Positions 10,740 to 42,618 of a stretch of DNA of 64,000 nucleotides are shown piece by piece (the stretch's first letter is position 1; each line of letters opens with the position of its first letter). The translations under genes and the position numbers were made by a program. Where the stretch lies: the NCBI GenBank assembly GCA_003342815.1, contig PTEX01000206.1, forward strand, positions 868,001 to 932,000, in the 5' to 3' direction. The notes under the pieces were generated by a model. It saw only the letters and a list, made by a program, of their open reading frames with translations, was not told the DNA's origin and made no database searches. This DNA is from Eudromia elegans. Its lineage: Eukaryota > Chordata > Aves > Tinamiformes > Tinamidae.

Positions 10740-11285
10740 AAAGCTCAGGACATGTACGCAGCACAGTGCTTGTGCAGGGATGTCGCTGTCGAGGCTGCTG
10801 ATAGTTGAGAGCATTTTGTGTAGGATAAAGAATCCCTGGAGCCCCGGCCTGAGCCGGGTTGTCCTGGTTGCGCAAAAGGGTTCTGAGAAAACAGAACGTG
10901 CCTTTATGAGCTGCAGGAAGGCAGGGGATGGTGTGAGGCTCCTTGAGGATGGTGGCAGGTCCTTGGGGATCTTTTCTGGAGACGGATGATGTCGGAGTGT
11001 CCCGCATGCCTGTGCAGGGGGGTTTGTGGCAGCGCTCCTGCGGAGGGGACGGTGCTGCCACCCGTCGCTGCTGCTGCCCCACGTGAGTGTGCAACCCTGT
11101 GCCGTGCTGGTGCTGCCTGGGGCTCCTGCTGCTCTCCCTTAGCCAGGGGTTTCATCCTAAAACCGAGTGAAGCTCTGCGCACAGGCAAGGGGCACTGCAC
11201 AAGCACGTGTAGCCCGTGTGCGTGCCCAGCGGTCTGCACTGCCCCTCACCTGCTCCCAGGCCACACCGATTCAAACCCAGCTTAA
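10740..11285. promoter_or_regulatory. GC-rich, CpG-enriched island, possible promoter
   Basis: About 540 bp stand out from the AT-rich, CpG-poor surroundings. I count roughly 24 CpG dinucleotides, including GCGC, CACGTG and CCGTCG contexts. The ORFs that overlap here on both strands are expected in GC-rich DNA. The island contains an ATG-ATG followed by a clean GTGAGTG donor at 11083. It lies between the possible poly(A) site of the left gene and the first solid exon of the split gene. The simplest reading is a CpG-island promoter with a first exon. A decayed GC-rich repeat is the main alternative; no TATA box was identified. Confidence 0.45.
10986..11082 (+). CDS. Candidate first coding exon of the split gene
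   Basis: Reading from the ATG at 10986 (or the adjacent ATG at 10989, which has A at -3), 32 codons run to CCAC|GTGAGTG, leaving one base. The next solid exon at 17458 needs exactly one base, so the frame continues. The peptide starts MMSECPACLCRGVCGS and ends in an alanine-rich stretch. It is Cys- and Ala-rich and has no clear signal peptide or membrane segment. Its position in the CpG-rich island supports a 5' exon. GC-rich DNA stays open by chance and the donor was chosen by eye, so the exon could also be 5' UTR, with translation starting elsewhere. Confidence 0.33.
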
Positions 11286-14200
11286 TGAGCTTCTTTACAC
11301 TCAATTTCAATTTTCATGATAAAATATTCACAGAGGAACTGTGTTTCAAGCTTTACCTCCCCATACTCTCCCTCCCTTGGCACCATTTTATAACAGGTGT
11401 TATAAATATCATAAAAAAATGCATTGTACCATTCCTTAAGATAGTTATATCATTGCGAAGGAAAGCTGTATTTGTACTGGAGGATGAGCTTGTAAGGTAA
11501 TATGAGTACACTTTAAATTGGCAAAGAGTATTCAGTTCTTGGGGAAAAATATTTACACATTTTCAAACAATACTCTAGGAACCAGCTATAAATAATTCAC
11601 ATCTATCCTTACTAAGATTTTTATGTCCAGTGGACAATAACATGGAATATAAAATCTGTATTATATGATAATATATTAATAGCTCAGAGATGAAGACATT
11701 ATAATTAATATAGCCTTCCTATTATGACTAGTTTTCTATTTGGAAAAGTAGAGGAAGTAATAGTTACTTCCGAGCTGTAGCTGAATATAATAATTTGTTG
11801 ATGAATACAGCAAGCTAGAAACCAGTGTTCAAAGTGTTTTTTCCTCTGTATTTCACATCTATCTCAGGATTATACTTGGGAGTAAGTAAAAGAAAAGTGA
11901 AAAAAACAAATGAGAGGAGTTTCCAAAAACTGCCAGTACTGGCCAAGCTTGATCCAAATAAAGAGTTTGCAATTAGATTTGGAAACAGTAGAGCTTGGCT
12001 AACATGATGCATTGGGAAAAATCCTACTCTATTTTATTTCTTCAAAGATCATGGACCAATGCAATTCAGCTGGAAGGTGAAATTCTACTATCTTAAAAAA
12101 TAAAAGAATGAAAGAAAGAAGAATAGATTTAAGTGCAGTGTCTATTTAGCATCTAAAATGGCTATTCTAAAGCTCTTGCACCTCATGCAGCTAAAACCAT
12201 CATTAAGGACTTTGTCGATAATCCTAAATTTGGAATGGCCTAGGTACTAAAGCAAGGTGATTTCTTTCACTTTTTCAGTGATCTCAGGTCAGAAAATTTT
12301 TGCAAAGAAAGAAAATACAGAAATGATATCTTCTAGATAAGATACTAGAGGAAAAAAAAAAAAAAACAAAAAAACCAAAAAACCCAACAAAACCCAACAG
12401 AATTATTTTCTGCTTGTAGGCACTTTGAAATAATCTGGTGACAGAACTCACATTCATTTCAACAAGGACAGAAAGGCTGAGATGATTAACTTTTCCTTTT
12501 TTAACTGCTCTCAAATGACTGCTGCTGCTTTCTGAGCCAAAATTCATCCTGTACAAGTAGAACAATTACCACATCCATTCTTGTCTGAAAACCCCACGAA
12601 AATCCCTGAACAGTTAAGAATCTGAGCTCTAATACTGATAGTTTTCCATCTGTCACAATGAATTGCTAAGAAGGATTAGAAAATAAAGCTAATTTACTGG
12701 AATTAAAATGAATTAAGTAACGAATGACAGTAAATTACAGATGAAAACAGGGAACACTAACTCTGAGAAGAAAAAACCTTTTGTTTTAAAATGTTTTTCT
12801 TCAAAATGAATATGCATTTTATGTTGCCAGCCTTTATCAGAGATTTATTTTCGACATTTCTTCTTCCAGTTGAGATGATTGTGACTTTTACACCTTGCAC
12901 GACGCATATCTCTGGCACTCATCAGATATCACTTAGTGTGGCCCAATCATTCTCAGGGATGAGTCAGGGGCAGCTGAATGTGTCACATCCATCCAAAGGC
13001 TATGCTAGCATTGCTTCATTAGGCTCAGACTGCACATCCAGGGGTAAGACAGTTAAGCAGCTGGGCCACTTTCAGCTTTCTTGCTCCCCAAACTTTCTTT
13101 AAATATTTTACATCCTCCCCTCCTCATCCTCCAGCCTCACCAAAATGCAATCCCTGTCTTCCAGTCCCATAGTGCAGAACAGGTTTTAGTGTATTCTTAT
13201 TGTAGCACCAACAGCTTTTTGCAAAGTGACTTGAACATTGAAGGAAATACAATATTATCTCAAAAGGAGACATATATTCATCCATGTGCAACGTCTGTCT
13301 TGATAAAGTAAATATTTTGTCAAGCAGTAGAGCATTATGGGACAGCCCTGGAAAGCCAGAGGCAAACTGATACGCTGCCGTGTTTGTGCAGGCTTGAATT
13401 AAGCAGGCATGAATTCCTCAAGTGTAAATGTGGGCTGCAGATGCGTCTTAGAGAAGGGTGCAGAAGATGGATTTTGTTGCTGCACTACCTGCCCTAGAGC
13501 ATGCAGGAGCTTATTCCTCTTTGGTAAGAGTGAATTTTGTATATGGGCTCAGGTAGGCATTAGTAGTGTGTGCTGCAAGTACACTTTGGGTAGTTCTTCA
13601 ACTGCTTATCTTTGATTTCGGTATTTTTGAACCTGCTTTGGTACCAAAGGATGCACTCAGTGCCCTTTTAGTATTCATTCTAGACAGCTTCTCCATGGCT
13701 ACTACAAAACTCAACCTTCTGGACTTAATATGGCAAACCTCTAACAAACCCAAGAGAGCTTTTGTAAGTGATTCTTTTCACTGATTTTGAATTTACTGCT
13801 TTGCTTTATTTTATTATATATATAATAATATATTATTGTTTTATTTGTGTGAGTGCTTTACTTGAGGATGGAAAAGACAGCTTGGAGCTCAAAATGGAAG
13901 TTTGTGGGCAAAATGCATAAGCAAGTGTGATTCCTCCTGCTTGAGCTTTATAGGAGAACAGATAATATTGCTCTCTGAGAAGGAAAAATTTCTTCTCTTT
14001 CCTTCACATCTTTCTCTTTTATAAGCTAATGTCCTCCTCAGCCCTCTGTGGCGCCACTACATCCATCCATCACCATCCTTAAACATTTTAACTAAAAATA
14101 AAAGAGATGCTACTTCCTCGGGTGGCAGAACATTTTGCCCAAAATTACCTGATTTCTGAGATTCTTTACATTTACTGTCCCATGGTCTGAAGCCAGGCCT

Positions 14201-15477
14201 TTTGTGGTGATTTTCTGGACATTTTGTGGGTCTTATTGAAGTTCTCAGGCATTTGAAAGGAGGGAAGTTTGCTCAGAGTCTTTATCTTTAATTGTTCATT
14301 GTATCTTAAAAAGAGTAAAACTGATATGTTTATTTTTATTTATTATTTGTGGTTTAAGTAATGATAAATTGTTATGGGTTTTGTCTTTATGCATCTTCAT
14401 ACGGAAGTAAGTTATAAATTAAGTTTCTCATTCAGAAAAAAATGCTTTATAGTAGAAGTGAACAAATGGAACTAGATGTAGAGCATAACAACTGTATTGC
14501 TGTAGGATTTTTATAATGGCTAATGGAGTAGGCAAATGTGACATACTTGCATAATCAGTCATTTAAAGTATTTATTAAAATTAAAATTGTAGAAATTATG
14601 TGGATAGTAATCAGTTTTCATTATAGTCCTTTCCACATTTCAGTGCTATAATTAGATTGTGGCATCTGTCATTGCTGATTAATATGTAGATAGCTTTATC
14701 TTCCCACCAAGATTTACTGTGTACCAAGTCAAAACTTTGATCGTCTAAAAATATGAAATAAAAAGTGGTAGTAGTTTGTAATTTTTGAAAGGAGCCTCTG
14801 CTGTGTAAAAATTCTCTAATTAGTGTTTCTCCCTACGTTCTCTGAAGTGAGACTATCCCAGCAGGAGCTGTACAATTGTCTGTGAGCAGCATGGGATTGA
14901 GGGAACCTCGGCAGTTCTTTTGGGGCTTGGAAAGTGACACTTAGCCTTTCTTAAAGCCGTGTGCTGTAAGCATGTACATAGAGAAGAGGGTATGAAGAAA
15001 AGCAATCCCTTCAAAACTGCGGAAGATTTAAATGCTTTTGGTCCTGCTGTGGTCTGCAGAGGCTTGATTTCAGTCTCAGTTGTACTAGGATTCTTCTTTA
15101 TGCATATTTTTGGCTGTTGTCATGAAAAGCTGTCTACTATAAACAAGTGACATCAGTCCCTGGTGTGTTTCTTCAGCCACTGGGATGCTAGAATGCTGAG
15201 CAAGCCTGATTTTTTCAAAGATATCTAATATATCTTATCTATAGAATGATTAATAGAGCTGGATGATGACCTGGCATTGGTCTGCTTAGGCACTCTCTTG
15301 TTTCTCTTGGGAACTGTGGGCTGTAGTTTCATGATTTTCTGGATGTAGCAACAAGGATAGCTTACAAAGGAGCTTATCAAGTGGCTTCTCATATTGCATG
15401 TTCCTCCTTCTCTGCCAGATTTCACTGTCTCTTTGGTTCACAATTTTTTTTTTCTTTTTATGTGTGTGGGTCTTCAG

Positions 15478-15560
15478 TGAAAACTGAACCGCTAAGCGGA
15501 TCTAAGCTGAAAGATATCCTCAGAAATGAAGCTCAGGCAGCAACATCTGGGCAGAACTGA
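15478..15560 (+). CDS. Candidate alternative terminal exon of the split gene
   Basis: After a strong pyrimidine tract (T10-C-T5 and GGGTCTTCAG), the only open frame gives 26 codons and TGA. The peptide begins KTEPLSGSKLKDIL and ends AATSGQN, a plausible hydrophilic C-terminus. The first two bases complete a codon, so it accepts the one-base phase left by exon 10986-11082 and competes with exon 17458-17533. No donor exists before the stop, and no AATAAA was seen close by. Splicing to it would give a very short product of about 59 residues. The exon is unproven and unrecognised. Confidence 0.25.
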
Positions 15561-16604
15561 GGATGAGATGGGACGTAATAGTTTGTTTCTTTGCCAAAAT
15601 CAGAGAGACTCTATGGACTCACTCTAATTAGCTTTGTACTGTAAATCACAGGCAAATCAGGTAAGCACAACTGCTAAACCAAGGTGTACCTTGCGCATGT
15701 CATCTCAGGACTGGATATCGACCCTCCCCAACACCTTTTAGAATATTTGCTCTGTGTTAGACGACCTATTTGGACTAATTTTGCCATCAGTTTCTAAACC
15801 CAGGCAAAACTTTCACTTATTTGTGCTCTTCTTCCATAGACTGAAGATATGTTTCCTAAACATGTATGTCTTCATACTAGGAGGGCAGAAGCCAAATGCC
15901 ACATATCTTTGTTGGATGATAGAGACGAACAAAGACAACTTTCAGCATGTGACACTGAAGAAGTGGTTTCAGCACAGAGAACAACCTTGGCTGTGTCTGG
16001 GCTGTAACGTGCAGCCAGTGAAACCCTTCACAGGGAGCTGGCGGGCAGCTTCTCCCAGACCCACAAGGGTAGTGGAGCCTCTTTGCACAGTTAGCACAGC
16101 GAGTTGCAGGGGTTGACCCTCACATTTGTATAGGACTTGTTCAAGTCTCATGGAGATCATCTCTCAAATCTTACTTTTTCTTTGTAAGCTTTAGAGTTCT
16201 AAATAGTTCATGTTTACAGCCAGCTATGAGAATCATTAAAGTTAATGAGCAATTAACTGGAGTACAACAGTGAACTCAAGTTTTGAATTCTTAGTGTTTG
16301 GCACACTCATAAATTGGTTGTTGAGATGAGGTGAAAAACCCTAGACAGCACCAGGGAAAGATAAGGTCATTGAACTGACTTTGATTTTAACTTAAAACAT
16401 CTGTCTGCAATGTTCAGTCTTGATCCTGGCTTGCCAACCAGTAGAAATAAAAGGGAAAGGAAAAGCCTCTATTTAATAGAGGAGAGAAAAAGAAAAAGCC
16501 CATAGTAGTAATGGTAGTGCTGGTCATGACAGTGTATGAAATATTGGATGGAATTTGACAGTCTACTACAGGGCAACGTGTTTTTCCTTTTCAGATGCAG
16601 CTTG

Positions 16605-16698
16605 CATACGTATACATATGCTTATATATATATGTATATATAGAGCACACACACACACGTACATACATATATATATATGTATGCATATATGCTATATA
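16605..16698. repeat. Compound TA/CA/GTATA microsatellite
   Basis: An interrupted alternating purine-pyrimidine tract: ATACATATG, (TA)n, (CA)5, then ACATACATATATATATATG. It can form cruciform or Z-like structures and is likely to vary in length between individuals. Confidence 0.85.
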
Positions 16699-17457
16699 CA
16701 ATGTGACCCAGTAGAATAGATATCTTAACAGCTTTCCAAGGTGGTTTGGCTAGAAGTATTATCCAGCTGCTTTTTGGCTCTTAGTGCAGGTAGTGGAAAT
16801 TCCCTGTGGGAGATGGCAAGGTGGAATGCTGGTGCTTACGAGTTTGTTGGAGGAGAAAATTAAATGATGTTTCCAGTCCTGCTGCAAAGTCTTGAACATC
16901 AAGGGATGGGAACAGTGAAGGCGACCTCTTTTTGCTCTTAGCCCCAGGATTATTGTAGACGAAACTTAGCCAAAAGCAGTCCTCTTCACTCCTTTTAGTC
17001 AATGTATGGGACTTCTGGGGCTATATCCTATGCTGAAGCAATTGTAGGGTTTTTTTTTTTTTGCCGGGGGAGTGAGGGGAAAAGGTTAATGGTTTAACTT
17101 GCTTGCCATTTACCTCACTGGTTCAATCCATTTTACGTATAAGATAAAAAAAGATTAGTTTCTTTGTAAGAGAAGTCTTACTGGACAACTTGATAATCAC
17201 AACAGTTTATGCTTGAGAAGTTCAGGAATAGAAAAGCAGAAGAATAAAAATGGAAACTGAGGGGCAGTTAGAGCGCATCTGTGCCAGTTTGCACAGGGTC
17301 TCCTTGCATTTCTGTTTCAAGCTCATCCTGTTTAGCCACTCTGCCCAGGTAGAATTTCTGCCCCATAATGATAAAAGCCTCGTCTGAATATCTGAATCTT
17401 TCAGATCTTTTATTTTCCCTATAAATAAAATTTGTATTTTTTTATTCATTCTTTTAG

Positions 17458-17533
17458 ATAAGAAAAGAATTTCCCGGAGAGTGAATTACTTTTACTTGGA
17501 TGAATTGTGCAACATCAGTGGTCTCCAGAACAG
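17458..17533 (+). CDS. Internal coding exon of an unrecognised split gene
   Basis: A 76-base exon with a T-rich acceptor (TTCTTTTAG) and donor AACAG|GTAACT. Two frames are closed by stops. The only open frame (24 full codons) reads KKRISRRVNYFYLD, then ELCNISGLQN. It is basic first and then mixed. It needs one base from the previous exon and leaves two (AG). The two following acceptors on the plus strand with open, protein-like frames, 20134 and 23635, both take exactly one base. That phase agreement across kilobases is the main evidence for a real gene. No domain is recognised. The K/R cluster could be a nuclear targeting signal; this is an inference. Confidence 0.6.
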
Positions 17534-18353
17534 GTAACTTCTAAACCTATTCAAGAATATTTGTGCAACATTGAAGGATGAGATAGTTAAAATGGTTCTT
17601 GAGGTGTGGTTGTGGTTTGAGAAGTCTGTAAGGAAAATATACGTGTTCTAATTTGTTCTCTGCAGCACTGCTTTCTCTATTTAGTCAAAAATAAATACAT
17701 CTTACTCTAAGAAACATCCCAGAATTCCAGAATTAGAAGAAATTGAAGTGTATTATGCCTTGGAAGTATACTTCTTCACTACTCCAATACTAATAAAAGT
17801 TTTGAGTGCTATTTAGGAGCTCAAACCCTTTCAAAACGCATTGCCGATAGGTTTATCATTGATGTTCTGGAATGGCATCTGTATTAGGACTAGATTATGC
17901 AGGTGAAGCTGATTATTCTGAGAAATATTTTTGAAAATTCAGTTCCTTGACAAAACTGTGTTAAGGGGGAAAAAATATATCTATTTGTACTAGTACTGTT
18001 AAAGCACCATGTATGTTATGTCCTGCATTGACACAGGTAAAATGTGATACAGTATTTTACAGCAACGCAAATAGACAGATGTCTGTCCTTGGAAAAAAAA
18101 TCTTCATACAACAAAGTTTCTGAGCATGGAGAATCTCAGCCAGAGCACTACATTTATGCAGCTATTTCATTTATTATGCTAAAGATCACTTGTTTGTGCA
18201 GCAAGTTGCTTCTCTGATTTTGGATGAGATACATTTCATGCAGATCACATTTTTGTGAAGATATGCAGCCATCCAAAAAATTTAAATCAAAGATTTTATT
18301 TTCTAATTAAAAATAAGATTTAAGGCATATTAAGCAGAGAGATTTCATTATGC

Positions 18354-18378
18354 AAAAAAAAAAAAAAAAAAAAAAAAA
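18354..18378. repeat. Poly(A) run, 25 bases
   Basis: An uninterrupted A25 after TTATGC. No retroposed gene body was recognised upstream and no flanking duplication was found. Confidence 0.85.
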
Positions 18379-20133
18379 GTGAATTGCATAGTGCTGTGAC
18401 TGATTAATTTATTGCAGGTATCCCAATCATATTGTCCCATAATAAGCAGTTCATGAAAAGGAGCAAAGAGAGGGCAAGGAGGAGGAGGAGGGAGCTGACA
18501 GTAAAAGGAGAATGTGACTGCTTATGCCCAGTCCAAACAAGGGGACTAGAAATCAAAAGTACAGATGTAAAGACAGGCAGGTGAAGTGGTCAAAAAAGCT
18601 GTGCAACTTCTTTTGGGCATATGTGCTAACACTTTACTGCAGTTTCATCTCCCAAGTACAAGACTATTCTAACTCTGGTGTTAGGATTCTTCCGGCTTAA
18701 GATAGTTCTAAAGGAGATGTGATACATGCTAAAAGTGATGCCTCTCTCCCATTCTTGTGAAATTTGTCCTCTTCCAAATTTCTGCCTTTCCGTAAGCACT
18801 TTCTGTTATTTATCGCCCATCTTCATTATTTCTTTAACAGAATCAAAATTATTTCCCACTAAAATTAGGTGCAGTTGCTTTACTCTCCATGTTTTCTGCT
18901 GAAAAAAACAGTCAACCAGATCTTTGATTTTTTTTTAATGAGACTTTTTGGGATTCCTCTATGTTGGTTATTAATATCTATGTTGTTTTAGTCTATTTGT
19001 AATTTTTCGTGCCTTCCTTCTAATACAAGACAATTCTTTATGGGGAACTCCAAGATCCCTTTAAAATTAAGACCACTATTTTATTTTTCCTTAGCTAAAT
19101 TAAATTAGATTTTACAGCAATATCGGTCTTTATTTTGTAATGTGAAAATGAACTTGAGCACGTTTCTGAATACTGGCCATAAGGTTCATGGGCCTCATAT
19201 CCACAAGGTCTTTCCACAGGGTGGTCTCAGAGCATTAATCTTTAGTCAGGATGAGGTGTGATGCACTTGGGTCTGTGTTACCCTGTCTGTTCTGTTAGCA
19301 GGAGGGAGAACTTGGGCTTCCCTGCAAAGATTCTCTAGACCATGTCCTGGAGCTTTTAGTCCTTAGGGTTTATGCTGTGGTTGACAGATGAGTCATCTGT
19401 TCATTAGGCCTATATTCACATCATCATAATTTCCCAAAGTGGCAACTGAATAAATTGTGGTTAGTAGTTTGGTGTGATTTAACCCCAGGATCTGGAAAGG
19501 AGGGTTGCTTTAGTTCAGCACGGCACTGAGAAGCCATATGGCAGAGAATGATTCAGAAAGACATGGGGTCTCCAAGGCAGAATGGGTTCACTAGATGAGG
19601 TTGAAACACTGCTTCAAGTCTTAGATACAGCTTCCCCAGGGATACACTGGGAATCTCTGTGCTCTGCTACTGACATCCCTGAAGAGCAGGCAGCCTTGGG
19701 GGAGGAAATACTGGCCCTTTTGGGAGAAGATCTTTACACACTTTAGTGGGGCTAACAGTTTTAGCTAAGATTGCAGTTGTTTTCCTTGTGTAGACAGTCT
19801 GGAACTGATAAGTACCATTTTGCTGCAGATATGTCATGTTTCAGCAATTGTTTAGGGCTGCTTTTTCACTCTGCAAATAAGGACACTATTATTAATTAGA
19901 TCATTAGTAAAAGCAGCCATTCAAAGCAAAACTGTCTCTTTTTTTATCTTTATGCTTTGTTACTTGTTACAAATATGAAATATAGATGATCAGAAAAGGC
20001 AGTTAGGAATGCAAGACTAGACATTTTTAAGATCAATCAAAATGGCCAGTTTTCAATAGACTGTTGTAATGCCTTTCTTCAAAGAGGAAAGCTTACTGCT
20101 TTGCACTCTAACAATATCTTTTTCCCCTTCAAG

Positions 20134-20287
20134 GAGCAAAAAAAAGAGACTATCAGTTTTTGAGTCTTTGGAACCAGATAGCTGTTATTCCTCTGTTGAA
20201 AACAAAATGCAGATTAAAACTACAGCAGCAAGGGAATTAGCTAAACACGGGCATTCATCCTGTTCACACTCCGAAGCTTCCATGTAA
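20134..20287 (+). CDS. Alternative terminal or cassette exon of the split gene
   Basis: The acceptor (TCTTTTTCCCCTTCAAG) is strong. Its first G completes the AG left by exon 17458-17533 to give Arg, after which 50 codons run to TAA. The translation starts SKKKRLSVFESLEPD, contains a YSSVENK segment and ends in a Ser/His/Cys-rich tail. SKKKRLS is a possible nuclear signal or basophilic kinase site (inference). Joined to the preceding exons it gives about 108 residues. ATTAAA, a variant poly(A) signal, is at 20342-20347. Alternatively a weak donor inside the stop context (CAT|GTAAAT) would make a symmetrical 150-base cassette that splices in frame to 23635. The product is unrecognised. Confidence 0.42.
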
Positions 20288-21977
20288 ATGAGACTAGTTT
20301 TGATTAATCATAGCTTAGAGAATTTTCCTATGCATAAGTCAATTAAAAACACGTTAGAACAGCTGTTAATGCTCAGACACATGCAGGCTAAACTGATTGC
20401 TAGCATCAATCTGTTAGCTAGCTGTATATTAGGATACTTAAAAAGGTAGAAAGTTTGCTCTGGTAGGTTGCTTGGTGCAGACTTGTCATCCAAAACAATG
20501 TGTTTCTTCAGAAATTCACTTTAATTTTTTTTTTTCATATTCTGCACACTAAAACAAACAAAAGGAAGATACATATTTAATTTTACTTATTTCCCCGAAG
20601 TTTAAATAGCTCTTTCTTCTCAACTGTTAGAAAAATTAAAGGAAGCATATCCAACATATGCTGAAAGAGAAATACACAAGAGGTTTCACATCTTTTGCTT
20701 TTGTTGCTACTTGTTTTTTCTAAGTTTTTGGGGCAAAGATTGAAAGGTCCTACCTGCTCTTCAGGACGATGCTCCTAGTGCTTCTCTTACTGCATTACCC
20801 ACTTCTATCTCTCTTTCTCTGGCCTTGGTGGTTTCTTGGTAAGATTTCCAGAAGAATATTGGACCTTTCCCTAAGTTATCAGTTATTATGTCAACTTCTA
20901 AGGAAGCTCATTCAGCCAAATGTCACAACTTCAGCTCAGTGGCTCTGATGAGCCACCTCTGCTGCGGCTCATGCGTTAGTTGTTTTTGCTACCAGCTAAC
21001 ACAAAGACTCTATCCTAAACTCGCACACCAAGGATATAATATTTGGGAATTACCCTATCTTCCACAATCTGTCAGTCTCGACATGCTTGTCTGGGAAACA
21101 AAAGCCTAGAAACAGGAGATTTGACTTCACTAAGAAGTGACCTGGGTTGGTTTTGCAATGTTTATATGTAACTGCAATATATAAGTATCTCCTCCAGCAC
21201 AAAAGCAAATAACCTTCCCTGCTAAAATCTGTTTAATTTTATATGAACTCTCACGTGACACATCTTCACACGAAGCTTAACAGAAAAACTAAGAAATCTC
21301 TAATTTGAGCCCTCCCTGCTTTATAGTTCAAAAGAGAGGTAGAGCATAGACCGCCTAATGTGACTTGAGGTTGCAGTTATCACAGAGCACATGACAGAAA
21401 AGATGGTATGAAAGCAGCCTTGCAGTTTACCCTTATTGTAGCAAAATTTAAATGGCTTATCTTATTCATCTGAGAAAAAAATATCTTATTCACAAACACT
21501 CACCGTGTCCAAAGCAAGGCAAACCTCTCTCACAAAACTTCACTTTTCTTAAAGCAATCCCATGGGCTTTCACATAATGAGCAATTAATTAAGGGAAAAA
21601 GCAAAAAACAAGTATACAACATAGACATGGCCTCATGTTTATAAGGCCCTGCAGACCCTTACAGATGTGGTTCTAGGATGTCAGGTATTTGCAAAATCAG
21701 ATAGCTTGGTGAGAATATGCATATGAAAACTGCAGGTTAGGCTACTTTGTAATGCAGTTCAGTTCACAGATAGAACATGTTTTGCACAGAATTTGCTATT
21801 TATTTCTGCTTTGTGGAGGAAAAAGGGTTATTTCACAGTTTGCTAGGGGGATACATTAAATTGGAAATGTTCAGGAAATAAGTGCTTGATTTTGACTAAA
21901 GTATTTTAAATTTTCCTTATGAATGTGTTCTTCCAAGGAGAAGAAGGGCATAGTTTTGAACTTCACATATCCAGTGA

Positions 21978-23634: not shown

Positions 23635-23748
23635 TAACGATCCATGCATCAATGAAAGAGCTCATCAGAAGTTTATTGAACTTTATCCTAAAGTGTTCTA
23701 CAAAGAAAAGAGAATATTGCCAAGAATTCCTGAAGCAGCTCTCAAAAG
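23635..23748 (+). CDS. Internal coding exon of an unrecognised split gene
   Basis: A 114-base exon with a strong acceptor (TATTTTCACTTTCTTTTAG) and donor AAAAG|GTAACT. Taking one base after the AG of exon 17458-17533 gives Ser, then 37 codons, including PCINERAHQKFIELYPKVF and ILPRIPEAALK. It leaves AG, and the G starting exon 35256 completes Arg. A second frame is also open within this exon alone, but continuing it into 35256 meets a stop, while the chosen frame runs through both exons. The peptide is hydrophilic with an aromatic FIELYPKVFY core and no signal or membrane segment. The family is not recognised. Confidence 0.6.
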
Positions 23749-29774: not shown

Positions 29775-30538
29775 TGTCCCGATCCGCTGTCGGGAGAGGT
29801 TTCGATACGATCCCAAGAGCGAGATTAAGACACAAACGAGGTCAAATGCTATGCAACCTTGTAAGCTGTATTTTCATAATCGTGATAGAATAGAGACAAG
29901 AAGGGAAAAAGGAAAAAAAAAAGAAAAGAAAGAGACATAAAGAAAGAGAGAGATGCAGCAAGATTATAGTTACCACCACCACCAGTCCAGCTACATTCCG
30001 TCAGTTCCACCTCGGTGCGGGTGTTGGTATCTGGAAGAAGAGGCCGCTCTCGATGCTGGTGATGATCTCTTGAGAGGGTTCAAATGACGACGAAGAAGAA
30101 ACCGCTGCTCCCTCGGTGTGCAGGAGAAGAAGTCTCTCGGTGCTGGAGGAGAGGAAGAAGGCCTCTCTCCATGGAGGAAAACGTAGTCCTTTTATTGTCC
30201 CAGTTCTTGAAGATTCCGCCCACTTGAAGATTTCTGGTACGTGCCGTCCGTGTCCTACGTGCTGGGTGCTCTGGTGCTCCTCTTCCCCCCCAGCTTGAGT
30301 GCTCATGCTGCCTGGAGGGCACTGCTGGGCATTGTNAGCCCAAAAAGTCACAGATCCTCAAGATGATGTCACAGTCTTCCTGATGCNGCAGTTAAGAGGT
30401 GTGAATGGTGCAGCAACAACATTGAGATAAGCACATCAACCGTTGTTCTTGGGCTGATATCAGTNTTGGGTTGATATCACAGTATCAATGATGTGGCAAC
30501 AATGTCGAGACAAACATAGCCCAAAATAGTCTCTTACA
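29775..30538 (-). mobile_element. Solo LTR of an endogenous retrovirus, with 5-bp target duplication
   Basis: A 764-bp segment begins TGTCCC and ends CTTACA on the plus strand (TG...CA ends). It is flanked on both sides by ATATT (29770-29774 and 30539-30543). On the minus strand a poly(A) signal, AATAAA, lies near 30195, between a U3 of about 340 bp and a long R-U5. There is no internal gag, pol or env sequence on either side, so this is a solo LTR left by recombination. The U5 part holds degenerate repeats built around CTCGGTG and GAAGAAG; the U3 part holds two copies of a GGGYTGATATCA motif. ORFs inside, up to 116 codons, are fortuitous. Three unresolved bases (30336, 30387, 30465) fall in the U3. 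A 5-bp duplication is typical of some avian ERV groups, but the family was not identified. Confidence 0.88.
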
Positions 30539-31145: not shown

Positions 31146-33076
31146 AGCGGTTTATGCATCATATTTGTTCAGAAAACACAGATGACTTTAATTGTGTAAT
31201 TCAATTTCACAGAAAGAAGCCTTCGCAAGAGTGAGAGACAGACATTTCTGACACCCAGACTCTCAGTGCTGCTAGCAGTTTTTGTTTGCCTATTAGTGCC
31301 ATTTTCCAAATGTTGAAGCTTGTGTTGACTGATTTATCCCTGTTTGCCCTCTCTCCTAACTACCTCACTTCTCACAGATCAAGTATTTTGCTTTCTAGGG
31401 GGAAATGCTGTGAAATAATGGGAATACACAACTAGGATCATTGCTAGGCAGATTATTTTAGGGTTTTTACTTCATATGTGGAATGTATCATTCCTATGTA
31501 GAGATTTGTTGTTGATTCACTTGCTTCCTCCACAATATTTTGCCTGGTCTCATTTTCTTCTGCTACTAGTAGCCATGCACCCTCCAGATTACCTCAAATT
31601 GTAATTATCTGTCTGGGATTTGGAGTAACTCTTGTAAGAAGAAAGGATGTGCAATACAGCTTTGTATACTGCGGTCTTGCCAGCACACTTTATGGACAGA
31701 CATAACAACCATATCCTGTAGACTGTATCGTAGCTATCTGTGTGGCCCTAGCTTTAACCATTTGGAAGTAATTTAAGCCTCACATTTTCCATGGTGTCTT
31801 GTGAGCATCAGGCTTAATCTGAGGTGTTTTCTAAGTGGGGGCTGTGAGTAATGTTGCACAAACGGGGCTAAAGTCTCAGAAAGTTCCACTTGCCAGTGGG
31901 CTGTACCTTTCCTCACCTCAGAGAGAAGGAAGGAAGATAAGATATTTTGAACTGGGATCCATGCACGTGCAGAAGGAATTCTGATTAAATTTGCATGACT
32001 TGTTATTTATTGCTCTGCATTACTCCTATGTGGAATCTCTGAGAATCAACCCCCCATTGTTCATGCAGGGCCCCTGTTGGAAAAGTTTGTGCAATCAGGA
32101 ATGGAGCCATGTGATATAGGAAGCGAGTCATTCTCAGAGTTAATCACAACTGTGTATTGCTTAAAGGTTTGTTTGCAGGGAACAGATCACAAATAATCTG
32201 TCAGTTGTACAATCTGTTCACATAAAATACTTTATTCTGAATAAAATATTACATCTTAAATCCATGCTGTCCATGGGCAACTCATAAACAGAAAGAGGGC
32301 CTGAATTTAACAAACCCGTTATTTGCTCAAAATGCTCAGGACCACTGCTTTGTTTGAATTCTATTATTATTTCTTTTTAACTGCTGAGTTCTTCCTCAGT
32401 ACCATGTGGTGGATATTTTCAATGCTATATAACAAATTACATTAACTTTAGTTCCTTGAATTTCTTTTTTTTTAAAAAAAAGGCGAATGTTACAGAAATG
32501 TTACAGGTGTAAGCAAAAGTTGCTATCTATAGGGACAGAATCCCATTGTTCTTTGTAATATACAAGGGTCTGGAAGGGACTCTTAGAAAGGGTGATTTTG
32601 CAGGGTAATTATAATTCTGTGCTAACACTCGTAAAATCCCTGATTTTTTTGAACACTCTTATCTGATATAATATAAATGGTAATTTTGGACCATTTGGAA
32701 ATAGTATGGTATAAGCCAGAATATGGTATTCTAGAACCGAATTAAATGTTGATGTGGGAAGTGACTGTATCTACCCCAGTAAAAGTACTCATTAAGAATT
32801 GCAAAGCTTTGATGAGGAAACTATGATGAAGACTAAAATTAATTCTGACATGGTTAAAACATAAATAGTTTATAGTTTCCTTATCATCAAGACTTCTTAA
32901 TAGAATCTAATTTAACTGATAAATTTAAAATGCAACTGCATTTCCCTAGGACTTTTGCAGCTTCCATTCGCCTACTGAAATTTTTATCTTGCAGCTATTC
33001 TATTCTTCATGTATGCATAAATAGCTTCTCCTGGAATATCATCAAGTGAAACACAAATTGTATTGCAACCAGAATG

Positions 33077-33077
<1 letters not shown>

Positions 33078-33122
<45 letters not shown>
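33078..33122. repeat. (ATT)15 microsatellite
   Basis: Fifteen uninterrupted ATT units within the putative intron; length polymorphism is likely. Confidence 0.95.
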
Positions 33123-33908
33123 TCTGTAAGGAGATTATCAGCAATATTATAGGAAATAAATTTTATGGGAGCATACTATATATCAAGAGGAAAGTGTGTA
33201 GCTGATCTAAGGGAGAAGTTTTAGCGAGGTCTGTGTCTTGTAAGATGGGTAGAAGTCATAGCTAAAAGAGAAACATCAGAGGAGATGACTAATTGAAATA
33301 TTCTACTTTTTTCGTTGTTATTTTTAATTTCTGAAATGCAGTCAGTGAAGTATGGGAATGACAATTACGTCAAACTATTGGAAAGAAAAAGCAGGAAAGA
33401 GGAAAATCATAACAAAATTATGACTGTTGAATTGGTAATGAGGCCACATGGGCTAGTTGTACATTTGGTCTTAATCAGGCTATAGAAAATACTAAGAACT
33501 AGGAAATACTAAAGAGGAAGAGCACTATATAAATTTGATTCTTTATTTCCATTTGACATGGTGAGAAGTGGAGATGCAATGAGCTGCCTTGGGAGTACAC
33601 TGCACTGGGTTGTTTCAGAACAGTGCCCAAGGTGGTGCAAAATCAGGACTCCACCTGTATGAGCAGAGTCCAAATGTAAAGATTAATGAACTTTCGCATT
33701 CATGATGCAAACTCCTAACTTTTTTTGCTTCTCATAATAGGTTGAATTAGAAGTATGTGTGAGGCTAGAAGTGTTAGGGAAACATGTTCAGAACTGAATT
33801 TTGTAGTTAGTGGTATTGATATTGCATGTGGCACAAGGTGTTCACTGTTCAGTAAACACATGCTGTGATGACTCTTATCAGAAATTCAAAACTGGTTATC
33901 TACTTTCA

Positions 33909-33913
<5 letters not shown>

Positions 33914-33943
<30 letters not shown>
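33914..33943. repeat. Poly(T) run, 30 bases
   Basis: T30, equivalent to A30 on the minus strand. No retroposed gene body or target duplication was recognised beside it. Confidence 0.9.
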
Positions 33944-33944
<1 letters not shown>

Positions 33945-34409
33945 TGAATGGACTGGGAAATCTGCCTAAATTGTGAAGACTTAAGCTTTTTAAGAAACAA
34001 TGTTTGCTGGTTCCCAGCATAGAATCGTGATTCCAGTTTATTAAAGCCGTGATTCCAGCTGCTTATATTACAGGAAAACAAAGAGGGGAAAAGGAGAGTT
34101 AAATAAGCACCTTTATTCAAAGTAGTGTTTTGGTGCCTACTCTCCACTGAAATCCTTGGAAACTGGGCAGTTAATTATCTTAGTGTGGATGAACACTACA
34201 TGCTGTTATGCTGTTATCAGGTTATTCAGTTACTGTTATCTGTCTTAAAGGATTTGACTTCTTCTCTGTTTTTAGTCTGCATCTCTGCAAATTATTCCAT
34301 TTTGTTTCCAAATTTTTATTTTTTCATTGTAATAGGAATTAAAATATTCAAAATAATGTTTCTATTCTTAATAAAATGGATTTATTGTTCTTTATTACGA
34401 AACCTGCTT

Positions 34410-34623
34410 TCAGATAGCCTGAATGACGGGCTGTTCTGGCCCTGGAAATGACCGGTATCTTGACTTTTATACAAGAAGCCTGAAGGAATATCTTGAAATT
34501 ACAGCTGAGGGAGCCCTGAGCAGCTGGATAGCCAAGAATCTGCGAGGTCCACAGCGAAGCAAGCCACATAGTCCAAAATATAGCTTAAAGTCAAATCTTT
34601 TCTTCTGTCACACAGTTCAATAG
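34410..34623 (+). other. Open, CpG-containing segment of unknown nature
   Basis: GC-richer than its surroundings, with several CpGs, and open on both strands. The plus-strand frame reads DRYLDFYTRSLKEYLEI, then a segment ending WIAKNLRGPQ. A fair acceptor (CCTGCTTTCAG) lies at its left, but a TGA follows within three codons in this frame. The only downstream donor (GAG|GTCCAC) is poor. It may be a decayed mobile element. No family was recognised. Confidence 0.3.
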
Positions 34624-35255
34624 GAAAAGAAGGAATGAAAATAACTGTACTCACATAAAAATTAAAACATGCATCATTTTGCTCTAGTGACTGGAGGGGA
34701 GTGCTAATGATGCAACCTCTGAATAACACTTACTGATAAAACCTTTTGTAGGGTAGTTGATTTCATATGCCTACAAAATTTAGCTAGTAAATACACCATC
34801 AACCATTCAAATTGTTACACTTTTTAAACCTATACACAAGTGACTTCACTTTGCACTGTAATGGACAAAATTTGCCTATCAGGTGCTTCTAGATTGGATA
34901 AAGGGAAGAGTAGCCTTGGGCAAAAGCTGGACAGTTTTGTTCACTGTCGCTTTTACACAAAAATGAATTTTTGAATGCTTTCCAAACTGATAACTAAATA
35001 AACTGATAAAGAGAGAAGCTAGAATTCTTTTTAAAAATATTGATTTTTTTCCAGATATATAGCTCTCTTTCATGTGATATTTTCTTTTTTTCTTTTTTAA
35101 TTGGAACCACTTTACATATAAGAGTTAAATAAATAACTAATTAAATAAATAAATAATAGTTAAAGAAGGGCCCTTTGCTACCTGAAGTGTTATAGCAGTA
35201 TTGTTCTAAGTGTGTGTGAGACACATGTCTTATAAAACTGTCTGTTGTGTTTTAG

Positions 35256-35411
35256 GAAACCAAAACCTGTCAATGAGAATCAAACAGAGGTTGAAAAATA
35301 TCATGATATTGGTAGCTACCTTAAGAAGATCAGGGGTATCCCCAAAATTGAGCAAGAATCTCTTCAGAAAAGGGAGCATATCAACATGCTGATAAGAATA
35401 CTCAAGAAGGT
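35256..35411 (+). CDS. Internal coding exon of an unrecognised split gene
   Basis: The acceptor TGTTGTGTTTTAG is followed by an exon whose first G completes Arg with the AG left by 23635-23748. Then 51 codons run to a double donor: AAG|GTGTAAG (end 35409) or AAGGT|GTAAGT (end 35411). The second is the better consensus and gives the phase that fits exon 42456. Peptide landmarks are KPKPVNENQTEVEKYHDIG, YLKKIRGIPKIEQESL and KREHINMLIRILKK, which is hydrophilic, helical-looking and very charged. One alternative frame stays open to an in-exon TGA, but does not connect to the neighbouring exons. This is the longest and most protein-like exon in the window. The family is unrecognised. Confidence 0.62.
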
Positions 35412-36208
35412 GTAAGTATTAAGATCAAAATTCACTTTTAACTTTGGTAATGAGGGAAGAAAAAGAACTTCATTTAGATTTGGGATAAGAAGGCAAGCAA
35501 AACAAAGAATATACTAGTAAAATGAGGAATATGATCTCACAGTAATCTTCAGTGATGATCTACACTACTATTGACACATTTTGCTCCACTTCATGTGGCA
35601 TCCTTAGATTTCAGACTCTTTAGAGAGAAGGATGTGTGTTTCACAGCTGTTTCTGAAGTACCTACTCTGTGTCTGCTTTTACCCCACAATCAAGATGCTA
35701 ACAAGAATCTTGGGTTGCATTCCAAGTGCGTATTTTCTACCTGGAGTTGTTACCGTATTTAGAATAAGCACTAGAATGCTGCATTAGTAGAGTAATTGAA
35801 AGATTGGGACTGTTTTTTTGAAGACCTATAGTTAATCTATTTCTTTGCACTGAAGAAAAACTCCACTGATGACTACTTGTATTTCATCATCTCTTTGCAA
35901 TAGTAATTCTACTAACTTAAATGAAAATAAGCATCTTAAGTATATTCTTCTTGCACTGGAAACTCAGAGTGAACCTTTTCTTTTACTTTGATGTTAACTA
36001 CATGCTTACACTTGGCCAAACCTCTCTTGCAGGCATTAGTTCTCTGCCATCTCACTGTTGCGGGCAAACTTGCAGGGGTTGGGGCGTAAATTTGGTAAGA
36101 GATGAATCCTCTTGCCTTCCAGCCGATCCTCAAAAGTTAGAGGGACTGGGGGTGGCTGGACTCATCTCCTAATACGGATACCAAATTCTGTGGTAACTCT
36201 AAGCCTGA

Positions 36209-36389
36209 CTCTGGCAGTACCAAATTCACCAACAGTGTCAACTGCAGGTCCGATCACCTTCCAAACAGCGAATCAAGTTCACAGGTAGTATGATCAACTA
36301 CCCGACTCTGGTAGGATCAGGTTCAGGAAGAGCCTGTTGACTGTAGGTCCGATTGCCTTCGAAACAAGTGGTCGAGTTCACGAATAGAA
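36209..36389 (-). repeat. Tandemly duplicated unit of about 90 bp inside the LTR
   Basis: Two diverged copies, about 36209-36291 and 36303-36389. Both begin ACTCTGG, share CTGYAGGTCCGAT and CCTTC-AAAC in the middle, and end in a GAGTTCACG/AAGTTCACA motif. They lie on the U5 side of the poly(A) signal. Confidence 0.75.
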
Positions 36390-37039
36390 GAATTTATTCA
36401 AATGCAACATTTAGAGAACAGGTTTTGGATGTCAGTACAGGAAATTCTCTACTATAGTGTGGGGGTCTTAGCTAGTGCCTAGTGTAAGAATGCACAATCA
36501 TCACAAAATGCACAATCCCAGAAGATGGGAGAGGGCTCTCAGTCTTGACCCAAGTCAAGTGTCTCCTCGGGCAGTGTCCTGACCTGAGGGGAGGAAAGGG
36601 GTTCAGCCTGTCTACTCCGTCTACTGATCCACAAGTTATGATGGAGTCCTCCCTCTCTCCTCTTCTTCCTTAGTTCCTCTTCCTCCTTTCCCCATTCCTT
36701 CTTCTTCTTCCTTCTTTCTCAGTTCCTTTTTCTTCTCCCTACCTCCCTCCTTAGTTCACTTTTTATATATTTTCTTTTAGAGTTAGGTGGAACTTGAGTC
36801 ACTCTACTCATAGTTACTTTTGTTATTGTTTGGTTTAAAAAGTCTTCCGAGTTAATAAAAAATCTAGAGAGCAGGTTCAGTGAGGAGTGGTCGTTCCTTG
36901 GAAGTGGGTGATTTCCAGGATGGCGTTGTGTATTGGTATTATAATGAGATTAAAGTGAGGAGAAGTTGAGTAAAGTCCATGGAAGGGACTGATCTGCCAC
37001 CATTGTTGGCCCAGCAGGGTACATCTGATCCTACTATGT

Positions 37040-37215
37040 GGCTTATCAGCTGCATGGTACATCCAGGTTGTCACCTCTGCAGGGAGTACAACGGAGTTTG
37101 CCCGCGGTGTCTTCACTCTGCTCCAACCTCCATTCACTCATGGGGCACCATCAGGTTACCACGTTCGCAGGGAAGCCAACAAAGAATGGTCATGGTGTCT
37201 CCTTTCTGCTCCACT
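37040..37215 (-). repeat. Duplicated unit of about 80 bp in the U3 of the LTR
   Basis: Two diverged copies share CATC(C)AGGTT, a CGCAGGGA/TGCAGGGA motif and the stretch GGTGTCTYC-TCTGCTCCA, around 37060-37130 and 37145-37215. Such U3 repeats often carry enhancer sites; this is known for LTRs generally and inferred here. Confidence 0.6.
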
Positions 37216-38840
37216 CTTCCTTTACTTGAATTAGTGTGTACTAGGGGGGCAGATTGTGATGCCAAGGGAATTGTGGAGAAGTAGATTCTATACATACCAA
37301 CCATCCTAGAAATGGAAACTGTCTCTCACCTCAGGCAAGCCTCTGTATTGCCCTAGCTTCTGTTAGGCCCTGTTTTTTTCTAATTTCCTCTTTCTCCAGG
37401 AATTCTCTCACACCCACTGATATCTATATGGATTTATAGTATACACAACACCAGGCACACAGCAAACTGGCTTCAGGGGACTATCTCATTTAGCTGTTCT
37501 GATCATTCTAGCATTTTAAAGAGTTACACTTTTAAAATATTTCTACTTTAAAGAACTAAATTATTCTTATTTTCATGCTCACAGTTATTATGTTGTACTG
37601 ATTAGTTGCAAAATGTTAATTGATCTGCCCTGCAGAAATGTCAGATACTGCTGTGGCCACCAGTTTGCCAGGCTGCAAATGGTGGGAGGTGGTTGGGGAA
37701 GGTGAGTGAACGGCTGCATGTGCAGTGTGAGTAGAACTCGTCAATAATGTTGCCTGATTTAGTAATTGTAGCTTTGACTTAGCAAGGGACAGGGAGAATG
37801 AAGTACAAGACTTTTGCTTCATTTTTCTTGTAGCTTCAGCACTGTCATCTATTTATTTAGTTCAAGAGTACAGGCTTATCTAACCTCCAAAGCTGGACTT
37901 TTCTAACTATTTCACTATAAATGAAGTGGTATGACCTGACATCCATTTTCAATGCTTTTAAAATCATATTTTACATTTGCACAGTTTTGATAGCACTTTA
38001 AGGACACACTAGTGATAGTGTTGGAGGTGCAAGCAGATGAAATCAAAGACGCCCTTAGTCTGCTTCCAACTACCACTTCTACAGCTCCTCTGGAGCATCC
38101 TGCCCCCAAAGCTCTGCTGGAATGTTTATTCTATTGTTTCTTCGAATTAATATGGGACAGCATAGAAACAAAAAAAACCCTTTTATTTTCTTTAATGGGA
38201 TTGCTTTCCGTAATCCAAATATTTTACAGATCTGGTTTGGGGAAGAGTTAAACAGTTCTGTCAATGTAACTGGCAGGAGAAAAGTGTGGGAACAAACAGC
38301 TGACAGCGGGTGAGAGGTGGTAAAGATTTAAACCAGAGCTGCTGCTGAGAAGTCTCTAGTGTAAGTCCTTGACGTAATCAAACTGTTATATTCCAAACAT
38401 AAAAATTCTTTTAGAAGGTGTCAGTGCTCAAGAAAACCAGAATTTCATCTTCAGAATCCTTGGCAATCTCCCATTGACTTCAGTGAGCCAGGATGTCAGC
38501 TGTGTTTGCTGAATGCGGTCATGGCATGGACTAGCCAGTAGATAATTTCTGACACTTAGAGATATTTCATTATCCCTAATCTCATGTAAATGTGAGCTGT
38601 TGTTGAAAGATTCCTTCCCACTTCCCCTCCTGCCTTTGGCTGCATGTTTCCAGTATTTCACTTGTGTTACATCCAATGGCAGTTTAGCCCACTACTAAAA
38701 GAATAAACCCCAAACAAACACAAAATCAGGTTCCCATTAGGTTGAAGTGACTCATCTTGCAGCTGTGGATTTGTTACATCATGCAAGGCAGTGAGCAAGC
38801 CACTGAGGTTGAAGAAGAGACCACCCCACCAGCCATAATG

Positions 38841-38877
38841 GTTCCAACTTGTTCCAACTGGTTCCAACTTGTTCCAA
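38841..38877. repeat. (GTTCCAACTK)4 minisatellite
   Basis: Four head-to-tail copies of a 10-base unit, GTTCCAACTT or GTTCCAACTG, the last one ending after seven bases. Confidence 0.9.
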
Positions 38878-39241
38878 ATATGCTCCTTTACTCTGGGAGA
38901 GCCAATCCCACCCTTCATCCCCCTTGCCTTTCCTCGTGTCCATATGAGCATTTGTGTTCCAGCAACACGGAGTTTGAGAAATAATCATTGAAGTTACCAG
39001 CCCTGACCAAGTTTAACATATAAACATATTGCCATAAGGAAAAGCTTAAGTGCAAAGGCAAAGTTCGGTGGCCACAGTCAAACAGATACTGGTTTTTTGC
39101 AACTGTAATGCTGGCTTAAAGTGTATGTGAAGCATTAGACCTAGGATATAGCTTTAAGGCATCCTAAACTAATCTAAACCAGCCTTCTGCATCACTGCTG
39201 CATCCTTCAGTCTCTCTCTTTGCGTCTGTGCTGGTATTCAT

Positions 39242-39312
39242 GTGATGTGACTGCAAGCGAATTTCTGAGAAGTTTCTGCAGGCAAGTGATGTGACTGCAA
39301 GTGAGTTTCTGA
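39242..39312. repeat. 27-bp direct duplication, period 44
   Basis: GTGATGTGACTGCAAG followed by YGARTTTCTGA occurs at 39242-39268 and 39286-39312 with two substitutions. Confidence 0.85.
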
Positions 39313-41639
39313 TGCTGCAGCAAGGAGAGGTGGTCAGGGAGCAGGGGAAGTGTTCTCCAGTGTGGAAATCCTGCTGGCCTGGGAGGACTTTGTACATTCT
39401 CTCTATTGCCATGTGTGATGGTGCTTGGTTCATACTGCCAAAAAGCAGTGGGATGAGGTGTCCCTCCTGGAAGCAGCAGATGATCCTTTCCCTGTTAGTG
39501 AGCTGATCATTTTATTGTCTCCCTTTCCTCTCTTCTCCTGAGTTCATTCTTTCCTCTTTGTACAGAGGGGAGATAAATGCAACACGGTCTTAAGATGGTC
39601 CATGAGCATACTCTGCTTTGAAGGCTGAGCCCATATTGCAGGCCACATTCAGGGTAAGAGGCAAGACAGAACTAGGAAGGCTCTCAGCTCTCCCAAGCTA
39701 AGAAAATCTGACTTTGCCACTGCGAGTGCAATGCTGGGCTGAGGTAATCATATGAGGGGCAGCTAGGCAGGGGTCAAGCTGTGCACTGTGCACTGGCTGA
39801 TAGAACCTTTGAAAGCATTCAGACCTGTGGAAGATAAGATGTACCTGCATGGTTTCCACATTTTTCAGAGAAAAGCATCAGAATATAAAGGTGTATTAAA
39901 GAAATCATCTACTGGAAATGCTTTCTTTGATTCAAAATGAGGTGTTTTATTTTGTTTTGTTTGTTTTGTTTTGTTTGTTAGATGTGATGTTAACTTTAAT
40001 TTTAAATTTCTTCCATGTTTTAAAACGAAAATGTCATTTCAAAACAGAATATGCAAGTAGTGTTTTACCTTGAAATTTGCAATCACTGACTCAGAAAATG
40101 CAATATTCCCATATTTTTTTTCTTCCAAAGAAAGCATTAGCTAAATTTAACTCAAGCTTATAATGTATTTTGGGTCTTTGAAGCTCCATTTTCATCAAAT
40201 CCTATATTGGTTGAAATATTCTTAGCTTTCGAGGCTCAGATAGGTACTCAGAGGCATGCAGGCTCTGCTCTGCCCTGCTGCATCCTCGCCACCTACAGGG
40301 GCGCTGACTACTTCAAAGCTGGATCATTGCTGGTACGTGGTGACAAAGCAGTACACAGCCCTGGTGGCTCCAAAAATGTGGAAAGGGCAAAAATATCGTA
40401 ATCTATAGGTAGGCTGTTCCCATACCATCTGGAGGATTAAATTTATGAAATTTATTTATTTTTGGTATTTTTGCATTAAGCAAATAGTCTCCATGTGTGC
40501 AATCTTTAAAACAACAAAGCAAAATAAAACTTCATGATTTTCCCATTCAAAATAAGTATAATGTAAAATTAAAAATGAATTATGCTGGTCAGTTATTTTC
40601 AGTTCATAGAGCTGTCTCACTGAAAGTTCCAGTATTTGTGTTTTATGAAATTTTGTTACAACAAACAGATTCCTGAGGCAAATATTTACTCATAAAACAT
40701 GAAAACTCTCCACTGCCTTTTTGGTGCTGCAGTATTTAAAAATGGATTGCATATTAATTTAACTCCGGGCTCTTGGGCCTTCATTCAGCCAACACTGAAA
40801 ACATGTTTCTGAGCTGACGTGAGTAAATCATTTCGAGTTTTTATTGTAGGGAGATTTTCAGAATTGCTCTGTCAGAATTGACCCTGCTTCTTAGACACTA
40901 ATTTCAGCAGAGCAAAGTTAAATTTAAGTAGTAAGCTTTTTTGAAAATCTTGCTTACCAGAGGACAGCTTGAGACAGCAACATTTTTAGAAAATTGCACT
41001 TATTCCTTATACCAGAACATCCTCATTGCAGACGCTAGTAGAGATGTGGTTTTTGACTCTAATGGACAAAAGGCTGAATAAGAACTTGAGGATTTGACCC
41101 TGTGTATTTTTCTTTCTTTGATCTTACAATATTACTTTCTGGTGGTATTTATCCTTTTTGCTTCTGGCTTCCTTTGGTAAATGAATATATGTGGAGCTAT
41201 TAAAAATTCCCTTGAATCAGCTAATTATTTTTATATTTGTGGGTGTCCCCTACATTAAATCTTTTCTGAACTCCCACTGCTCCAGACAGCCTTGGTTTCT
41301 GACCACCCAAGTACACAATCCAGTGGAAATGCAACATTGAAACTTCTCCTTGATCTTCCTGAAAAAGGCCCTGTCCTGTCATGGTTTTGCATTCTTCAGC
41401 TGAAAATCCACTAATTACACAACAGATAATTAGGAACATATAAAATCCGCACAAAAAAAAACCCCAACAACATTAAAATCACCTCACAGCAGAAAATGAA
41501 GACAGATTATCTAATACTAGTAAAGGATTATACCATAGAATATGCATTATTATTATCTGCAAATTATTATTGTATTCTCATTATTATCTGGAAAAAGAAA
41601 ATGTGATGATCTCTAACTGCCTGTTGGACACATTTTGTG

Positions 41640-41723
41640 TTATTTTATTTTATTTTATTATTTTATTTTATTTTATTTTATTTTATTTTATTTTATTTTA
41701 TTTTATTTTATTTTATTTTATTT
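41640..41723. repeat. (TTTTA)n microsatellite, about 84 bp
   Basis: About sixteen TTTTA units with one shortened unit near 41659. It is the longest simple repeat in the window and likely to be length-variable. Confidence 0.95.
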
Positions 41724-42455
41724 ATGGATTTCTTGCTGATATCTGAGTGAGTGCATTCTGGATTATCATGAGCTCATGAGCATCAGAACTAAGATGAAGC
41801 CATATCTCTATTTTAAAATGGGATCAGTTTATCAGTGTAATGCGATAACTATTATGAACCTCATTTCTTTTTATTTCAATGGCTTCACTAGGTTACGTTA
41901 CTTTTTTCATCATCCTTTTTTAGCAACATTCATTTTGGGACCAGGTATAGACATCTGCAAGATGAATAATGGAATTAATTTTTCAGGAGGTTTTGGGAAG
42001 ATTGTCTATTTCAAAATCTTTCATAAAGCTGTTTTTGAAAATGTTCATTCGATGAATTATTCTGCAGTGTGATCCTGGCCTTCTAAATTCACCTTTCCGA
42101 CTGTGATAAAAAAAAAATCAAGTGGATTGCCTAAACTTTGCTTCTGAGACGTGTTAGAAGGTGGCTTATGATTAAGTATAAGAAGTATAAGAAATATTAT
42201 TAGAAATTTTTAGTAGCTGCCATCATGGGTGATGTTGAAGTGAAAGTTTTTTAATGATTAAATCTTTACCTTGCTAGAAAGAACACACAGTCTTTAAACT
42301 TTTCAATGGACTAATAAATAAACTTCTAAATAATGCAAGGGAATGAAGTAATGTTTGATGATATTTTACTGATATTTTTATCGGTGATTATCCTGTCTTA
42401 CTCAGGATTAATCTCTGTTTTTTTTTTTTATTTAACTTTTTCTTTTTTTCCCCAG

Positions 42456-42618
42456 TCACTGTCAGACAATGTCAAAATCCTGTGTCTCATCTAGCAAAGT
42501 ATGGAGAACACATCTTCAATATATCAACACTGAACAGTTGTTTTTTCTAGAGGATTTTAATTTTCAGCAAAATATTCTGCCAAAGTGTTTTCATGTGACT
42601 TTATTTCAAAGCTTTTAA
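42456..42618 (+). CDS. Candidate last coding exon of the split gene
   Basis: The acceptor is the strongest in the window (a long T-rich tract ending CTTTTTTTCCCCAG). Using the GT-ending donor of exon 35256-35411, the first T completes Val. Then 53 codons run to TAA, including QTMSKSCVSSSKVWRTHL and LEDFNFQQNILPKCF. The predicted whole product is about 201 residues. AATAAA at 42908-42913 gives a 3' UTR of about 300 bases. If instead the donor at 35409 is used, the frame ends after 12 codons (SLSDNVKILCLI). The third frame is open for 30 codons too. The exon is more certain than its reading frame. Confidence 0.42.

Follow-up and report, generated by a model that had tools for sequence, protein, structure and literature searches.

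The PKA regulatory subunits and EPAC2 (RAPGEF4) are among the closest described counterparts of the gene discussed here, tandem cyclic-nucleotide-binding (CNB) domains being common to them and to CNBD1. An arginine that follows the FGE motif has a role in cAMP binding. CNBD1 itself is a poorly studied, testis-listed gene. Its human form is listed among the testis-specific genes for which no mouse model has been reported (in an excerpt of PMC7436996), CNBD1 is a marker of an age-enriched state of Sertoli cells in an atlas of the primate testis (in a passage of PMC10691849) and it is raised in treated neuroblastoma (as part of PMC4941301 states). In the dog, where the gene order at the locus is WWP1, CPNE3, CNGB3, CNBD1, MMP16, a deletion takes CNBD1 exons 1-4 with its breakpoint in the middle of intron 4, and passages of the same paper report no apparent phenotypic consequence of CNBD1 loss in dogs with that deletion (PMC3639114), which speaks against a vital role of CNBD1. 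A literature search for CNBD1 together with birds gave no match, and one for CNBD1 together with chicken gave no title on a bird CNBD1; the letters CNBD1 mean something else in several papers.

Identity and extent of the split gene

We analysed a stretch of 64,000 nucleotides from the palaeognath Eudromia elegans (contig PTEX01000206.1, positions 868,001 to 932,000), hereafter the window, in which a first-pass annotation had described an unrecognised, possibly lineage-restricted split gene of five exons between positions 10986 and 42618. All of its exon coordinates are correct, and joining the five exons does give 201 residues. The three middle exons have good splice sites, as had been claimed. 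Following the numbering of turtle CNBD1, whose first exon is inferred from the turtle protein, these are coding exon 2 (17458-17533, + strand, starting in phase 1 and ending in phase 2; borders ttttag|AT and CAG|gtaact), exon 3 (23635-23748, + strand, phase 2 to phase 2; ttttag|TA and AAG|gtaact) and exon 4 (35256-35411, + strand, phase 2 to phase 2; ttttag|GA and GT|gtaagt). Joined across two phase-2 introns, they are open in one of the three frames. Agreement in phase alone is weak evidence, because under a rule loose enough to admit exons 2-4 the window contains 22 open candidates for internal exons on its + strand and 12 on its - strand. It is homology that makes these exons real and confirms their borders. 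Their product of 114 residues is 79% identical to ostrich CNBD1 over all 114 residues (E 3.5e-46 against a database of 5.8 billion proteins) and, in a search admitting longer proteins, 84% identical to tinamou CNBD1 with 80% of the query aligned (E 2.8e-41). Exon by exon, identical residues number 21/25 (ostrich) and 17/25 (turtle) for exon 2, 31/38 (ostrich), 33/38 (tinamou) and 21/38 (turtle) for exon 3, and 44/52 (tinamou) for exon 4.

A profile built from three sequences retrieved 76 proteins at a cut-off of E <= 1e-5, 71 of them named CNBD1 or CNBD1-like and the other five hypothetical or unnamed. The source organisms are mammals, turtles, lizards, alligator, python, lancelets and birds. 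Orthologues named CNBD1 belong to turtles, lizards, mammals, alligator and four palaeognath birds; lancelet proteins named CNBD1-like are also within the profile's reach. The split gene of Eudromia elegans is the already named vertebrate gene CNBD1 and not a new one, still less one restricted to a lineage. In a tree of seven rows it stands beside Nothoprocta with a support of 81/85, under the threshold for a starred node.

Examination of the next 200 kb of the contig to the right of the window revealed nine more CNBD1 coding exons, in order and on the same strand, 41 to 127 kb past the right edge. Numbered onward from the window (window-extended coordinates, all on the + strand), they are exon 5 at 105220-105365, exon 6 at 109579-109739, exon 7 at 124845-124979, exon 8 at 127247-127379, exon 9 at 148547-148656, exon 10 at 151474-151624, exon 11 at 170745-170812, exon 12 at 188669-188728 and exon 13 at 190785-190934, which includes the stop codon. 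The codon split across the junction of exons 4 and 5 gives V followed by PILRT, exactly as in tinamou CNBD1 (VPILRT). A TTTA tetranucleotide repeat (window-extended 170700-170744) ends at the acceptor of exon 11 and may serve as its pyrimidine-rich tract.

All twelve exons (2-13) are collinear with CNBD1 and keep AG/GT borders, frame and matching splice phases; the donors of exon 10 (gtacgc) and exon 12 (gtacta) fall short of the strong consensus. Joined, they encode 485 residues free of internal stops. Similarity to the named orthologues extends over their whole known length, the model being 87% identical to the tinamou protein over 371 columns, 59% to that of a sea turtle over 486 and 46% to that of the platypus over 496. 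Taken singly, exons 2-13 are each 40-73% identical to turtle CNBD1, and exons 3-10 each 80-98% identical to the tinamou protein. From exon 2 to the stop codon the gene spans about 173 kb, of which intron 4 accounts for 69.8 kb. The middle three exons are almost certainly coding exons 2-4, in the 5' portion of a + strand CNBD1 gene that looks complete in its sequence, its exon 1 and start codon being candidates at most. The gene does not end at 42618, as first annotated; it continues to about 190934 (window-extended), and the figure of 201 residues fails as a product size beside the 485 encoded by exons 2-13.

Terminal exon candidates and alternative readings

The proposed first exon (10986-11082, + strand) lies in a weak CpG cluster, a candidate promoter region, and its donor fits exon 2 in phase. 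CpG count per 300 bases is here the highest in 84 kb (16, with GC 0.65 and an observed/expected ratio of 0.51); a second cluster at 30001 has 15 CpGs per 300 bases and a higher ratio, 0.67. Single ambiguous bases occur at 30336, 30387 and 30465, within a stretch richer in GC and CpG at about 30.0-30.5 kb. In the window, 25 donors that precede exon 2 can be paired with an in-phase ATG, that at 11082 among them, and four of these, again including the candidate, read GTGAGT or GTAAGT. Nevertheless, 10986-11082 bears no distinctive similarity to turtle exon 1. When turtle first-exon peptides were compared with phase-1 donors having an in-frame ATG (54 donors and 82 ATG-donor pairs in the window and 20 kb upstream), no clear winner emerged, the candidate tying for third to fifth place with a score of 11.0 against a best of 12.0; in a further scan, ungapped and with no ATG required, it was absent from the best twelve rows. 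The region has no second copy within the 284 kb compared. It is thus an unproven candidate, and the true first exon could sit farther upstream than the 20 kb covered. Residues 1-96 of the tinamou model and the N-terminal MTVKSG of ostrich have no convincing counterpart beside exon 2. The tinamou N-terminal residues do find partial matches upstream of the window, and part of them recurs at several sites of the 284 kb; this recurring part is, by inference, repeat-derived.

The proposed last exon (42456-42618, + strand) lies inside CNBD1 intron 4 and fits in phase. Under a rule requiring phase 2 and at least 25 codons, the stretch 35412-64000 contains 25 terminal candidates including this one, where about 22 would be expected from the opposite strand (49 in 64 kb). 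Fifteen of the 25 have a poly(A) signal within 400 bases; the AATAAA nearest to 42456-42618, at 42908, lies 290 bases past its stop. No counterpart exists in tinamou or turtle CNBD1, both of which run directly from exon 4 to exon 5, and in the 284 kb compared the region gives one 42-base match at 83%. With its count at chance level and no homologue, we reject it as part of CNBD1. Both points also weigh against the five-exon reading, in which 10986-11082 and 42456-42618 would bound a short separate gene or a CNBD1 isoform cut short within intron 4. That reading can point to phases that fit throughout, to a first exon in the densest CpGs of the 84 kb with one of the four GTGAGT or GTAAGT donors, to a last exon among the longer candidates (54 codons, a length reached by 4/25) and to the ostrich CNBD1 record, which is likewise short at 168 residues. 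The C-terminal residues of ostrich, however, show no match to 42456-42618; they correspond to an out-of-frame reading of exon 10 (51% across 45 residues, E 1.6e-9). With the last exon at chance level and the direct passage from exon 4 to exon 5 in both relatives, we regard such a short gene or isoform as highly improbable.

A decaying CNBD1 pseudogene, with recognisable exons whose protein is no longer made, would agree with the scarcity and incompleteness of bird records (5 of the 76 matches) and with an exon 1 that is not located with certainty. Decay is hardly compatible, though, with frame, splice borders and phase kept in every one of the twelve exons, with 485 residues uninterrupted by a stop and with the high identity to tinamou in each of the exons compared, so that this too is very unlikely. 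Finally, the abundance of open, spliceable stretches on both strands of the window would allow splice-like signals and an open frame to arise by chance where there is no gene. For the middle three exons this is refuted by their similarity to a named orthologue over all 114 residues, and its probability is practically nil. A complete-looking CNBD1 gene is the reading we adopt: the observation of three exons is correct, but its extension at the 3' end and the label 'unrecognised' are wrong.

Domains, fold and possible function

The first-pass annotation saw no known domain in the product because the CNB domains are encoded by CNBD1 exons downstream of the window. For the same reason neither the 201-residue nor the 114-residue peptide gave a family in Pfam, and a PDB sequence search with the shorter one gave no match. 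The tinamou CNBD1 record (475 residues) carries PF00027 at residues 371-465 (E 9.4e-13, in two stretches), the Pfam scan of this protein giving no other family; exons 8-10 of Eudromia elegans encode the equivalent region. The family profile matches EPAC2 (1o7f) with a summed E of 2.3e-16 from four weak stretches, and PKA RI-alpha with E 1.6e-5 to 6.3e-5, where no stretch passes alone.

An AlphaFold2 model of turtle CNBD1 has a mean pLDDT of 74.8. Within residues 121-420, 25 of the 30 ten-residue blocks reach 85 or more, with dips at 201-240 and 251-260, while residues 1-120 are of mixed confidence (blocks of 34-83). The leading Foldseek matches of this model are PKA and PKG chains, with E 3.0e-16 at rank 1; the second, 4x6r_B, has TM scores of 0.38 by query and 0.64 by target at 17% identity. 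Over the best 50 rows, identity is 12-18% and TM 0.19-0.38 by query length, the match covering the CNB domains and not the N-terminal part encoded by exons 2-4. Both the turtle orthologue and the family profile hence display a tandem CNB fold.

The pocket sets CNBD1 apart from the PKA regulatory subunits and EPAC2. We aligned 47 homologues out of the 76 matches, leaving out 29 near-duplicates, fragments and odd models. In the second CNB domain, the glutamate of FGE is present in 47/47 and an arginine at EPAC2's position in 0/47, the letters in that column being F (36), S (8), A (1), V (1) and L (1). Counting all 76 proteins, the motif occurs in 74, every one of which is without the arginine (F 61, S 10, A 1, V 1, L 1); the other two are the ostrich record, in which the region is missing, and an owl fragment, in which FGE is present and the proline absent. 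The Eudromia elegans model has phenylalanine here. A phosphate-binding cassette with arginine after FGE, as expected of a cAMP sensor of the PKA regulatory subunit or EPAC kind, is not found in the CNBD1 proteins compared.

CNBD1 might be a regulator with the architecture of a PKA regulatory subunit or of EPAC, in which two CNB domains would follow a conserved N-terminal extension about 115 residues long (contributed by exons 2-4), and which would be used mainly in testis, as listed for man; we give this proposal roughly an even chance. It draws on resemblance, on the fold of the turtle relative and on a mammalian expression list. Since the second CNB domain keeps FGE without EPAC2's arginine, the nucleotide pocket looks degenerate, which makes a ligand-independent or atypical-ligand regulator or scaffold more likely than an ordinary cAMP sensor. 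From fold and motif we infer that CNBD1 would be a PKA-R-like pseudo-sensor rather than a sensor of cAMP.

CNBD1 in other birds

Birds contribute five of the 76 profile matches, one name being shown per cluster: tinamou, ostrich, rhea, kiwi and an owl fragment of 88 residues. The palaeognath records have their coding parts in the same order and frame as the Eudromia elegans model, but all four are incomplete, whereas the model has exons 2-13. The ostrich record consists of exons 2-4 followed by the out-of-frame match to exon 10, the rhea record begins at exon 5, the kiwi record passes from an intron-4-like stretch into exon 5, and the tinamou record is without exon 2 and exons 11-13. The rhea and kiwi proteins end in LSTQ and LSMQ, equal or close to what reading through the exon 10 donor yields in Eudromia elegans (LSTQ), and these two records probably miss exons 11-13. 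In Eudromia elegans, exons 10-13 are intact (contig 1019474-1058934; window-extended 151474-190934). A segment of intron 4 (window-extended 93555-93641) resembles the first 29 residues of kiwi CNBD1 at 86% but contains a stop, so the N-terminus given for kiwi may be intronic sequence annotated by mistake.

We had considered the owl fragment as a sign of decay in other birds. It is 71% identical to kiwi, and so is Eudromia elegans over the same region; being no more diverged than Eudromia elegans CNBD1, it was dropped as such a sign. The small number of bird records hints at a possible loss or poor annotation of CNBD1 in other birds, within a database search that is non-exhaustive. A wider picture, in which CNBD1 would act in the male germ line as a pseudo-sensor with tandem CNB domains, independent of cAMP, and would be complete in palaeognaths but broken or lost in most other birds, is offered tentatively, and we consider it rather doubtful.

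A false new gene is thereby removed and replaced by a CNBD1 exon model fuller than the bird records with which it was compared. If the pattern among birds holds, loss of CNBD1 in other birds could be used to probe the purpose of the gene, and bird lineages would, if the wider picture is true, constitute a natural test of CNBD1 function.
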